From Burkholderiaceae bacterium (lineage in GTDB: Bacteria > Pseudomonadota > Gammaproteobacteria > Burkholderiales > Burkholderiaceae_C): DNA of 14,215 nt. The notes beneath the pieces were generated by a model, which made no database searches, was not told where the DNA came from, and saw only the letters and a list, made by a program, of their open reading frames with translations. Position 1 is the first letter of the stretch. Every line of letters starts with the position of its first letter. Position numbers and translations under genes: made by a program. This document shows, one piece after another, positions 7,840 through 10,809 of the stretch. The DNA lies in contig JALRBF010000353.1 of NCBI GenBank assembly GCA_023262365.1, positions 1 through 14,215 of the forward strand, given 5' to 3'.

Positions 7840-8745
7840 CTATACGTGCCCCCACAGCACAAACACGTCGCGCCCCTCTTGCTGCACCTGTACCGTGGCC
7901 CCCACAGGCAGCGCCACCTTGGCCACGCCGTGGCCAAACGGCAAGCCACTGAGCACGGTGGCGCGTGTGTGCTCGCGCAGCCATTGCCACACATGGTTTA
8001 AACCGTAACCCGCGTCTTGCCGGCTGGCGGCAAAGCGGTTGAAGGCCCCCAGCAAAATTACCTGCTGGCGCTGCAACACCCCGGCGTGGGCCAGTTGCGT
8101 CAACATGCGCTCCACGCGATACGGTGCCTCACCCACGTCCTCCAAAAACAACGCACCGCGCTTGACTTCGGGCCAATACGGCGTGCCCACCAGCGAAGCC
8201 ACCACGCTTAGGTTGCCACCCCACAGCGTCAGCCCACGCCAGCCGCGGGTCGCCGCCTGCGCGGCGGGCACACGCCAGCCCACGCCTTCGCCAACGCCTT
8301 GCGTCAAATCCTTCCAACACGCCACCGTAGTGGCGTGCGGTGGCTGAACTTGGCCAAAGTCCTCAATGAGGGCTGGCCCATGCCAACTCACGGCCCCAGT
8401 TTTGGCCAGCAACGCCAACTGCAACGCGGTGAAATCGCTAAACCCCACCCAGCGCGCGCCCCGCGCCATGGCGCGCGCCATGGCCGCATAAGGCAAATCA
8501 GGCAACAGCCGCGATACGCCATAGCCGCCGCGGGTGGTCATCACCACATCGGCACCGCTGGCCGCGGCCCGCTGGAGGCCCTCCAGCCGTTGCGCATCGC
8601 TGCCAGCAAAACGGGTTTCTCGCGCCAGCGCGTGTTCGTCCAGCACCACCCTCATGCCCATGGCTTGCAGGCGGCGCACGCCACGGTGCACGTCGGCCAC
8701 GCGCCGCACCGCGCTGCTGGGGGAACACACATACACCCGAGTCAT
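7840..8745 (-). CDS. ldcA: Muramoyltetrapeptide (LD-)carboxypeptidase, peptidase S66
   Basis: LD-carboxypeptidase removes the terminal D-Ala from tetrapeptides released during peptidoglycan turnover, so that tripeptides can be recycled in the cytosol. The 301-residue protein (Pseudomonas LdcA is about 307) has the S66 motifs: VYVCSPSSAV at the N-terminus, MTTRGGYGVSRLLP (69-82), and WVGFSDFTALQ (99-109) with nucleophile Ser103. GGNLSVVASLVGTPY (176-190) is followed by LFLEDVGEAPYRVERML (199-215), with Glu202 as the likely triad acid, and GLPFGHG (267-273) with His272. Spacing of Ser, Glu and His matches LdcA (Ser115/Glu217/His285). The ATG at 8745 is 4 nt after the stop of the tadA-hydrolase gene, indicating coupling. 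A longer TTG-started frame from 8784 would overlap that gene and adds no family sequence. No signal peptide is seen, consistent with a cytosolic location. Confidence 0.93.
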   Translation of the reverse strand: MTRVYVCSPSSAVRRVADVHRGVRRLQAMGMRVVLDEHALARETRFAGSDAQRLEGLQRAAASGADVVMTTRGGYGVSRLLPDLPYAAMARAMARGARWVGFSDFTALQLALLAKTGAVSWHGPALIEDFGQVQPPHATTVACWKDLTQGVGEGVGWRVPAAQAATRGWRGLTLWGGNLSVVASLVGTPYWPEVKRGALFLEDVGEAPYRVERMLTQLAHAGVLQRQQVILLGAFNRFAASRQDAGYGLNHVWQWLREHTRATVLSGLPFGHGVAKVALPVGATVQVQQEGRDVFVLWGHV

Positions 8746-8749
8746 GGCC

Positions 8750-10159
8750 TTAAGTGTGACACAGCGGCCCCAGCACCTGCTCAAGCAATGGGCCCACGTC
8801 GCTCAAGGCCGGGTGCACCCACTCTTGCACAAAATGCCCCGCCTGCGGCCAATGCAGCACACTGGCCTGCGGCCAACACGACTGGTGCAAGGCCTGCATC
8901 ACCTCGGTGCCACACACCGGGTCGGCGCCGCCCACCACCATGCGCACCGCCATGTGTGGCTGCGCCGCCCACCACCGCCGCGCCTCACGCATCAGGCCCG
9001 CGCCCTCATGCCCAGGGCCATCGGGCACCAGGGCAGGAAAGGCGCGCAGCGCCGCGCGGTACCCGGCGTTGGGAAACGGCGCAGCGTGCGCGGCGCATTC
9101 CTCGGCCAACAGGTGCGGGCAGGCGCGCTGCAGCAGCGCGGCCACGTCAAACGCCGGCTGCCTGGCGCAAAACGCACGCCACTGCAAAAACCCATCGGGC
9201 AGTGGCACGCTACCGTCAGGTAGCAGGGTGTTAAGTACCAACAAGCCGTCACACGTCCAGCCCGCGTCCATGGGCAGCGTAAGGCCCAACAGCCCGCCCC
9301 AGTCTTGCACCGCCAAGCGCAGGCGCCGCACGCCCACGTGCGCCAGCCATTGCTGCAGCACCTGGCGATGCGCTGGCCAACTGTGCCAAGACGCGTGCTT
9401 GGGCTTGTCGCTTTGACCAAAGCCAATCAGGTCTGGGGCCAACACCCGATGCCCCCAGCCCGCGAGTGTGCCAATCCAGTGGCGCCACACATAACTCGAG
9501 GTTGGGTTGCCGTGCAGCAGCACCCACGTGATGGCCGCGTCCTGCGGCCCGGCCTCAAGGTAATGCATGCGCAGCCCGCGCAGGGCCGGCAAATGGTCGA
9601 CATGGCGCGAGACCACGCCCGGCGGTAGTCCGTGAGCAAAGCACGCCTCGGGCGTGCGCAGCGCATCGTCACGCAGTGGCCACGGCGCGGCCCGGCGACG
9701 CGGCACAAAAAACTGCTGCAACAACGCCGCGGCCTCGTCTGCCCGCACGCCCGCCGTGACCGCAGGCGCACCGGCTTGGTAGGGGCCATCAAACAATTGC
9801 GTCACCGACGCCAGTGCCCCCGTGCGCGGCTCGGGCGCGGCGTACACCACACGCTTGAGGCGGGCGTGCCAGCTGGCCCCGGCACACATCGCGCACGGCT
9901 CGGCCGTCACGTACAACGTGCAATCGGTTAAACGGTAGTTGCCCAAAGCCTGCCCGGCGGCGCGCAAGGCCCGCACCTCGGCGTGCGCAGTCGGGTCGTG
10001 CGCACCAATCGGCGCGTTGTGCGCCGCGGCCACCACGTGGCCGTTGCACACCACCACCGCCCCCACTGGCACCTCACCTTGCGCCGCGGCTTGCCGCGCC
10101 TGCTCCAACGCCAAGCCCATCCAGTGGGCGTCGTCGCGCTCGGGTGGCGGGGCACTCAC
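8750..10159 (-). CDS. tadA: TadA tRNA(adenine-34) deaminase fused to a DhlA-like haloalkane dehalogenase domain
   Basis: One uninterrupted frame of 469 residues holds two enzymes. Residues 1-155 are TadA, which deaminates A34 of tRNA-Arg(ACG) to inosine: the zinc site HAE (His59, catalytic Glu61) and PCAMC (Cys89, Cys92) are intact, and positions match E. coli TadA within two residues. Residues 166-469 are an alpha/beta hydrolase of the haloalkane dehalogenase I type: LRTP...LPALRGLRMHYLEAG, HGNPTSSYVWR (216-226), APDLIGFGQSDKP (241-253), VQDWGGLLGLTLPM (nucleophile Asp286, Trp287), GFLQWRAF (Trp327), AD-PVCG (Asp413) and AGHFVQE (His442). Trp287 and Trp327 align with the halide-binding Trp125 and Trp175 of DhlA. 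The linker (about 153-166) is Arg/Pro-rich. The GTG start overlaps the upstream TGA (GTGA). A frame from 10201 is longer but adds only non-conserved sequence. Dehalogenase activity is inferred from residues, not known. Confidence 0.9.
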   Translation of the reverse strand: MSAPPPERDDAHWMGLALEQARQAAAQGEVPVGAVVVCNGHVVAAAHNAPIGAHDPTAHAEVRALRAAGQALGNYRLTDCTLYVTAEPCAMCAGASWHARLKRVVYAAPEPRTGALASVTQLFDGPYQAGAPAVTAGVRADEAAALLQQFFVPRRRAAPWPLRDDALRTPEACFAHGLPPGVVSRHVDHLPALRGLRMHYLEAGPQDAAITWVLLHGNPTSSYVWRHWIGTLAGWGHRVLAPDLIGFGQSDKPKHASWHSWPAHRQVLQQWLAHVGVRRLRLAVQDWGGLLGLTLPMDAGWTCDGLLVLNTLLPDGSVPLPDGFLQWRAFCARQPAFDVAALLQRACPHLLAEECAAHAAPFPNAGYRAALRAFPALVPDGPGHEGAGLMREARRWWAAQPHMAVRMVVGGADPVCGTEVMQALHQSCWPQASVLHWPQAGHFVQEWVHPALSDVGPLLEQVLGPLCHT

Positions 10160-10788
10160 GGCGCGCCCGGCTCGTCCGCCAGCCCCAGGCGCTGCATCCA
10201 CTGTGCCAGTGCTTGCTCATTGGCGTTGCCGCTGGCGTAGCGCGCGTACATGGCTCGGTGCGCCTCGGGCCGGTGCTGGTTGAGCTTAAGCGCGCACTGC
10301 ACATTGTGCACCTGCAGCGTAAAGGCCACCACCCCGTCGAGCATGCGTTCGGTGTAAGACGCCGGCAACCCCCGCCACTGCTCGGCGTAGCTGGGTTCGT
10401 GGTCGGCAATCAGCCGTTTAAGCAGCGCGTCTTTGGCCTGCTCGCCTTGCAACACCTGCGCCCGCGCGCGGCAGTGCACCGCCAAGTAGCTCCAAGTGGG
10501 CACGCGCTGCTTGTCGTTGTACACCGCCGGCGACATGTACGCGTGCGGCCCCACAAACAGCACCAAGACCTCAGCCGCCGCATCGTGCAGTTGCGCAGCC
10601 TGCGCATTGGCCTTGGCCACGTGGCCGTGCAGGGTCCACGCACCATCGGCCGCCACCTCAAGCGCCAAGGGCACGTGGCAGGCGTGTGCCGCGCCCTGCG
10701 CGTTGTGCGTAATAAGGCTAGCCAACGGGTGCGCACGCACCACCGCCTCGGCGTGTTCGGGGTAAGCAAACTGGCGCGGCAAATACAT
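10156..10788 (-). CDS. PaiB-family FMN-binding protein
   Basis: This 210-residue split-barrel protein matches the PaiB family ('FMN-binding negative transcriptional regulator'), named after a Bacillus protein linked to sporulation and protease control. In proteobacteria it is more likely an FMN-binding oxidoreductase or detoxification protein than a repressor. Motifs in order: MYLPRQFA (1-8), HPLASLITH (20-28), HGHVAKANAQ (54-63), VLVLFVGPHAYMSPAVY (74-90), VPTWSYLAVHCRARA (96-110) and the C-terminal KLNQHRPE (168-175). These are the flavin-contacting blocks of the family, at the family's usual length (about 200-215). The ATG at 10788 has AAGGGG 5 nt upstream; an adjacent TTG is one codon earlier. 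The gene lies 21 nt after smpB and its TGA overlaps the GTG of tadA, so it is an internal cistron of this operon. The biological role here is unknown. Confidence 0.88.
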   Translation of the reverse strand: MYLPRQFAYPEHAEAVVRAHPLASLITHNAQGAAHACHVPLALEVAADGAWTLHGHVAKANAQAAQLHDAAAEVLVLFVGPHAYMSPAVYNDKQRVPTWSYLAVHCRARAQVLQGEQAKDALLKRLIADHEPSYAEQWRGLPASYTERMLDGVVAFTLQVHNVQCALKLNQHRPEAHRAMYARYASGNANEQALAQWMQRLGLADEPGAP

Positions 10789-10809
10789 CAAAGCCCCTTG
10801 CGTTGCGCC

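Follow-up and report, generated by a model that had tools for sequence, protein, structure and literature searches.

Why an essential deaminase that edits tRNA should be joined in one reading frame to a hydrolase resembling haloalkane dehalogenases is the question raised by a locus of a Burkholderiaceae bacterium (GenBank assembly GCA_023262365.1). The window, i.e., the whole stretch of DNA that was analyzed, comprises positions 1 to 14,215 of contig JALRBF010000353.1 and has a length of 14,215 nucleotides. We examined whether the fusion is genuine, how widely it occurs, and what became of the hydrolase in related genomes.

The fusion gene and its two domains

The in-frame fusion of TadA to a DhlA-like hydrolase, described in the original prediction, was confirmed: one frame of 469 codons carries both domains, with the domain scores and residues given below. 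The coordinates 8750..10159 were also correct, but the location of the gene on the minus strand had been missed. The frame is open from 10159 to 8750, beginning with GTG and ending with TAA, and stops are present when the same interval is translated on the plus strand. A longer version starting with the GTG at 10201 is formally possible. The fusion protein has one match of 100% identity in its own genome. The genes are tightly packed in the order FMN_bind_2, tadA-hydrolase, ldcA: the start codon of the fusion (GTG, 10159) shares bases with the TGA that ends the upstream FMN_bind_2 gene (10156..10791, minus strand), in the sequence GTGA, and the ATG of ldcA (7840..8745, minus strand), which encodes an LD-carboxypeptidase (Pfam Peptidase_S66; below the NCBIfam PRK11253 cut-off), stands 4 bases past the stop codon of the fusion. 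A second alpha/beta hydrolase (Abhydrolase_1, 54.9 bits) is encoded at 3–749 on the plus strand and is cut by the left end of the window.

The TadA domain (residues 8–156; 9692..10138, minus strand) scored 163.7 bits against the equivalog model NF008113, above its cut-off of 150 bits. The residues of the HAE and PCxxC motifs, H59, E61, C89, and C92, which we take to be the zinc and proton-shuttle residues of TadA, are present and were invariant across 42 aligned proteins. The likeness to the TadA proteins of E. coli (1z3a) and S. aureus (2b3j) consists of this zinc site and a sequence match over residues 8–156. Unlike the natural chains among the matches listed, which have 144–183 residues, the chain of the window adds a 300-residue hydrolase after TadA. 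It is the single TadA match at E ≤ 1e-20 in its genome, in which tRNA-Arg(ACG) was also found (L181 and L182, anticodon acg); no other tRNA with A34 was present among the 25 tRNAs detected in this draft genome.

The hydrolase domain (residues 165–452; 8804..9667, minus strand) matched Pfam Abhydrolase_1 with 63.2 bits. Its score against PRK00870 (NF002043) was 226.6 bits, below the cut-off of 265 bits, and for this reason we term it HLD-I-like rather than a member of that model. The solved structures nearest to it by sequence were those of DppA (2xt0; 222 bits over residues 167–450), DpaA (7avr; 170 bits), and DhlA (155 bits). When aligned with DppA and DpaA, the catalytic pentad is complete, comprising D286 and W287 (9299..9304, minus strand), W327, D413, and H442. 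From the DhlA literature, we assume that D286, H442, and D413 form the catalytic triad and that W287 and W327 are the halide-stabilizing tryptophans. The predicted model of the whole protein (mean pLDDT, 86.2; under 50 at residues 1–5 and in part of the linker) contains an alpha/beta hydrolase fold with a cap, as in DppA and DhlA, and Foldseek aligned it with 2xt0 (TMt 0.93, rmsd 1.9, 40% identity over its length) and 1b6g (TMt 0.83). The likeness to the HLD-I enzymes DppA, DpaA, and DhlA (1b6g) thus extends to the full-length fold and the catalytic pentad, and the differences are the fusion to TadA and the sequence HGN in place of the HGE of 2xt0 and 7avr. The hydrolase in the window is probably still catalytic.

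The two domains are connected by a linker (residues 157–164; 9668..9691, minus strand), in which the pLDDT of the model falls under 50 at residues 158–162. As the original prediction had observed, the junction contains no stop codon and no ribosome-binding site. There is no ATG or Shine–Dalgarno sequence in the linker of the window, and no Met at this place in two close relatives, P0002 and L001, in which the frame across the junction is the same. The GTG at codon 152, the only start codon in the linker stretch of the window, was likewise correctly described as lacking a ribosome site, and it shows no Shine–Dalgarno pairing (0.0 kcal/mol). The TTG codons 146–147 are accompanied by a Shine–Dalgarno-like tetramer but lie within the last helix of TadA.

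Distribution of the fusion

The protein search scored 7999 candidates, of which 7777 had E ≤ 0.001. The best 120 of the 7999, the protein of the window included, all had both a deaminase and an alpha/beta hydrolase Pfam domain. Where these relatives carried a database name, it was TadA or deaminase, with P0068 naming both parts; fusions in sequenced relatives, which the original prediction had thought possible, are therefore present in the databases under these names. The fused entries include Variovorax terrae, Hydrogenophaga, Ramlibacter, and Acidovorax. One further close relative, L001, is 74% identical to the fusion of the window and is cut by the end of a contig labeled Candidatus Fonsibacter lacus; it is unlikely to come from that organism, and the public record appears to contain a binning error.

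A TadA scoring over the cut-off was found in 139 of the 150 genomes of the window's family, and one locus per genome was analyzed. Here, a fused hydrolase is called eroded when at least one pentad residue is lost. The 139 loci comprised 35 catalytic fusions (window included), 47 eroded fusions, and 57 unfused tadA genes, so that 82 of the family loci are fused. Three loci (L001–L003), which were a contig-end fragment, an unrelated deaminase, and a duplicate of the window, were left out of the counts, and G090, whose TadA match did not reach the cut-off, is not among the family loci. In the order-wide search of 120 genomes, 15 loci outside the family were analyzed, and a catalytic fusion was found in two of them (L147 and L149); these 15 were partly picked for their long frames, and we therefore state no frequency of the fusion for the order. 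With these two loci added to those of the family, the analysis covers 84 fused loci, 37 of them catalytic. Based on these results, a large group of Burkholderiales commonly carries the fusion.

In both fused and unfused loci, ldcA lies close to tadA: 72 of the 84 fused loci and 54 of the 57 unfused family loci have it on the same strand, no more than about 300 nt away, counts that include some fetched stretches ending earlier. The hydrolase is therefore situated between two old neighbors. The hydrolase was not found as a separate frame next to tadA in any fetched stretch, and the arrangement that the original prediction had named as counting against it, with separate tadA and hydrolase genes in relatives, is thus absent from these loci.

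In a tree built from TadA and LdcA together, a branch with a support of 99 united 73 fused rows of the family with a single unfused row (L101); eight fused rows without a usable LdcA were left out of this tree. The eroded locus L073 was placed outside the fused branch. The unfused locus L086 fell inside the branch on TadA alone and outside it on TadA plus LdcA. The two fusions from another family, L147 (G200) and L149 (G151), grouped with fused members of the window's family on TadA and with an unfused family on TadA plus LdcA, and a transfer of the fused gene is possible in these cases.

Some family genomes showed peculiarities of their own. L082 (G124) belongs by its code to the genus of the window. 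It carries an eroded hydrolase, and its TadA shares only 51% identity with that of the window, which means either a very deep genus or a contig in the wrong bin. GuaB was tried as a placement marker and dropped as too conserved, since the GuaB of G124 was 78% identical and the best other full-length match 81%. Four family genomes that are 96–100% complete (G042, G006, G123, and G090) had no TadA over the cut-off; the gene may be truly lost, highly divergent, or missing through a gap. ARAGORN found tRNA-Arg(ACG) in five of the six genomes without TadA that were checked, including three of these four; the match in G123 was partial, being cut at 65 bases. Given this tRNA in five of the six, we do not claim a loss of TadA.

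The wide distribution also bears on the reality of the gene in the window. An assembly or gene-calling artefact is conceivable because the window comes from a draft genome of 376 contigs that is 91% complete. The architecture is, however, repeated in 83 further loci of other genomes, some of them single-contig, and both Pfam domains occur in every one of the best 120 matches. An indel near the A6 run, which the original prediction had proposed to check by resequencing, is not needed to explain the frame, which the relatives share; an assembly or frame error at this run is ruled out by the 84 fused loci, window included, together with the frame of the relatives. We therefore give an artefact practically no chance.

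Possible internal starts and loss of the catalytic residues

All five catalytic residues are intact in 35 of the 82 fused family loci, and the other 47 lack at least one of them, usually all. Among these 47, the nucleophile was lost in 46, the acid in 43, and the histidine in 45; the one locus retaining the nucleophile (L051) has lost the neighboring residue. The pentad was intact in 169 of the 223 fused proteins listed. Most eroded loci have lost the cap region along with a large share of the C-terminal half. The length quartiles of the eroded domain were 207, 231, and 271 residues, with similar values across separate branches. The longest extension, 428 residues in L085 (G079), is an eroded hydrolase with long alanine-rich inserts.

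Two parts of the hydrolase have nevertheless been kept in relatives without catalytic residues. One is the N-terminal core (residues 161–283; 9311..9679, minus strand), in which A166, L167, R168, H216, D243, G246, G248, S250, D251, and P253 were identical in all 47 eroded loci, K252 and K254 were conserved at 0.96, and W at position 221 (Ser in the window) at 0.94. The other is the segment PFPN-A-GYRA (residues 361–374; 9038..9079, minus strand), which belongs to the cap; P361, P363, D at position 364, and G366 in this segment ranged from 0.91 to 0.96 (P361, 0.94; P363, 0.94; G366, 0.96). The mean conservation of TadA was 0.75 and 0.77 in the two groups, i.e., equal for catalytic and eroded fusions. 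For the eroded protein P0138 of Alicycliphilus denitrificans, the predicted model (mean pLDDT, 80.0) had strands of the core in the hydrolase-derived annex as well as a last helix, and it still matched dehalogenases (7avr; E 7e-14, TMt 0.46); a second alignment of this model was filled by TadA and hardly covered the annex.

The dN/dS ratio was calculated for 23 pairs whose TadA parts shared 80% identity or more, namely, 12 eroded–eroded, 4 catalytic, and 6 mixed pairs and one TadA-GNAT pair. These pairs are few, partly overlap, and are in some cases near saturation. For the eroded–eroded pairs, the ratio was 0.09–0.64 in the core (residues 161–283) and 0.23–0.86 in the C-terminal part; the corresponding values for the catalytic pairs were 0.21–0.35 and 0.18–0.34, and the C-terminal part of the mixed pairs gave 0.54–0.85. 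The median net charge of the domain was 0 in eroded and −2 in catalytic fusions. A generally basic, RNA-binding surface on the annex was considered and set aside, as a net charge of about zero gives it no support.

Erosion does not seem to have had a single origin. A tree with one eroded clade was rejected (p-AU 2e-5) for 73 rows, from which L147 and L149 had been removed as members of another family, and L073 once its position outside the fused branch was known. The eroded label changed 13 times on the best 73-row tree, and the starred branches of a larger, weakly resolved tree forced only two changes. Not every eroded domain is cleanly maintained, as the frame of L075 is cut by a stop, leaving a remnant of 113 residues, and the similarity continues beyond it. 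Within the fused clade, L101 lacks the hydrolase completely, and the annex is thus dispensable in at least one lineage. A separate related hydrolase was found in only one of the 47 genomes with an eroded fusion (G041; E ≤ 1e-35, with at most 15 candidates scored per genome).

Catalytic and eroded fusions also differed in the linker. An in-frame ATG was present in the linker of 16 of the 37 catalytic fusions (14 of the 35 family loci, and both L147 and L149) and in none of the 47 eroded ones (Fisher's exact test, 2e-7, with relatedness ignored). Of 17 linker ATGs, 12 stand 10 to 12 codons ahead of the invariant R168. The sequences upstream of the linker ATGs include AAGGAG and GGAGG, and their mean anti-Shine–Dalgarno pairing was −6.5 kcal/mol, compared with −2.6 for other in-frame ATGs in the TadA part of the same genes and −2.7 for those in the hydrolase part (p 2e-5). 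The listed proteins showed the same pattern: a linker Met was present in 21 of the 162 catalytic proteins but in none of the 40 eroded ones (p 0.017), after 21 of the 223 had been dropped for want of the linker motif. The narrower linker stretch was defined only after the count over a wider stretch (residues 140–176) had been seen, and over the latter the contrast was weaker (ATG in 18 of 37 catalytic vs. 9 of 47 eroded fusions, p 0.005). Any start codon with a Shine–Dalgarno-like tetramer occurred in this wider stretch in 20 of 37 and 19 of 47 (p 0.27). The density of ATGs in the linker (17 in 673 codons) was not above that in the TadA part (135 in 5311), and a relatedness-controlled test of ATG against erosion had only one to three usable pairs and shows nothing. 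GTG and TTG were rejected as general internal starts, as those in the linkers of catalytic fusions were not better paired than others (p 0.996); L005 and L013, in which a GTG or TTG with a Shine–Dalgarno sequence takes the place of the linker ATG, are the only plausible non-ATG cases.

Catalysis seems to outlive the loss of a linker ATG, because 21 of the 37 catalytic fusions have none. Both the window and P0002, which is 73% identical to it, lack a linker ATG yet keep the pentad, and this points to catalysis inside the fused chain.

Probable origin and possible role of the fused domain

The reading that we favor, and regard as moderately probable as a whole, is that one bifunctional chain arose by loss of a stop codon and that its hydrolase later became a scaffold-like annex in many relatives. 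A free hydrolase gene beside tadA would have lost the intervening stop in an ancestor of the Comamonadaceae-like clade; as no separate neighboring tadA and hydrolase genes occur in the fetched stretches, this loss is inferred rather than seen. The hydrolase would initially have kept its own start, so that both a fused and a separate product could come from one gene, an ability that many catalytic relatives seem to retain. In the lineage of the window, this start would have gone, and the hydrolase would work, if at all, only within the TadA chain. There, D286 would make a nucleophilic attack on a small substrate unconnected with tRNA, and the TadA part would deaminate A34 of tRNA-Arg(ACG). In many relatives, catalysis would have been lost and the scaffold retained as an annex that serves TadA structurally or through contacts. 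That the scaffold is kept after the loss of catalysis suggests that selection on the fused domain is partly non-catalytic; its role may lie in stability, in the form of the dimer, or in contact with the tRNA or a partner. More tentatively, as a quite possible history, a metabolic enzyme may have been captured by TadA and several times independently stripped to a conserved scaffold serving the deaminase. The window would then represent the stage before stripping, apparently a single sealed chain that has no internal start and in which both active sites are intact.

The linker ATGs could also be read to mean that TadA and a free, internally initiated hydrolase are the relevant products of the gene, and that the fused chain is a by-product, tolerated after operon neighbors had lost the stop between them. 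The frequency of these ATGs in catalytic fusions, their strong pairing, their position near R168, the two loci with a GTG or TTG in their place, and the repetition of the pattern in the listed proteins all agree with such an arrangement. We nevertheless consider it unlikely, as the window, P0002, and L001 have no linker Met and the window has no Shine–Dalgarno sequence, the linker ATG density is not raised, the contrast weakens over the wider stretch, and the conserved domain in the 47 eroded genes without a linker ATG is left unexplained. The hydrolase could also be a passenger that, once useless, simply decays in frame behind TadA, its core reflecting slow decay or the avoidance of misfolding. 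The graded series from L034 and L043, which have lost two residues at the nucleophile, through the remnant in L075 to the absence in L101 fits such decay, as does the faster evolution of the C-terminal part in eroded than in catalytic genes. Neutral decay would not, however, be expected to leave ten positions identical in every eroded locus, to keep the distant P361/P363/G366 motif beyond an often deleted stretch, to give a core dN/dS below 1 in all 12 eroded–eroded pairs, or to end at a similar length on separate branches; it is distinctly unlikely in our judgment.

The hydrolase might instead act on the tRNA, a modified base, or a toxic nucleoside linked to TadA. Although the fusion is stable over many genera and the whole pentad persists in most of the listed fused proteins, the loss of catalytic residues in 47 of the 82 fused family loci, with TadA and the domain retained, argues against such coupling and against the chemical repair of modified bases that the original prediction had offered. 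A possible stand-in hydrolase was present in only one of the eroded genomes (G041), and separate relatives of the hydrolase lie away from tadA in nine genomes without a fused tadA, in three with a catalytic fusion (G064, G082, and G110), and in G041. The chemistry of the hydrolase is dispensable, which makes a chemical connection of the two activities unlikely, and we regard functional coupling as highly improbable. Of the other rationales in the original prediction, co-expression by fusion and a scaffold role both gain support. The prediction was borne out in part; it had missed the strand, the eroded fusions, the internal start codon of many catalytic relatives, and how common the fusion is across a large clade.

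Added domains are also found on other TadA-type deaminases. In eukaryotic ADAT2/ADAT3, the N-terminal domain of ADAT3 is reported to bind the tRNA (PMC9643335). This added domain is N-terminal, has another fold, and belongs to a different subunit, whereas the bacterial annex is C-terminal and has a charge that does not suggest tRNA binding; the parallel holds in principle only. Among the loci outside the window's family, L148 (G153) combines TadA with Y_phosphatase3 (197.6 bits), and L150 (G202) was judged to do so by the same HCTAGKDRTG motif; L144 (G225) combines TadA with Acetyltransf_10 (GNAT; 69.5 bits), and L146 (G181) is alike, as judged by motif. These TadA-Y_phosphatase3 and TadA-GNAT proteins resemble the fusion described here in carrying an extra enzyme domain after TadA, in the same order, and differ in that the domains are unrelated and occur in two other bacterial families of the order.

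The architecture itself is present in public databases under the name TadA, and both domains are in or near known families. A paper on dehalogenase mining reportedly mentions multidomain dehalogenases with a deaminase domain, and we therefore make no priority claim for the architecture as such. Among the open-access titles and abstract openings listed, none described the fusion or its erosion. What we believe to be new is the repeated reduction of the fused enzyme to a conserved, TadA-borne scaffold, together with the connection that this reduction may have with an internal start. The family offers a natural series of one gene, always with TadA, in which the hydrolase is catalytic (with what is probably its own start, or with none), dead, or lost, so that the origin and entrenchment of pseudo-enzymes are directly testable in many parallel lineages. 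The series is also a warning that, across a large group of bacteria, proteins with no other name than TadA carry a second large domain, which matters for the choice of TadA orthologues for base editing and for genomic counts of dehalogenases.
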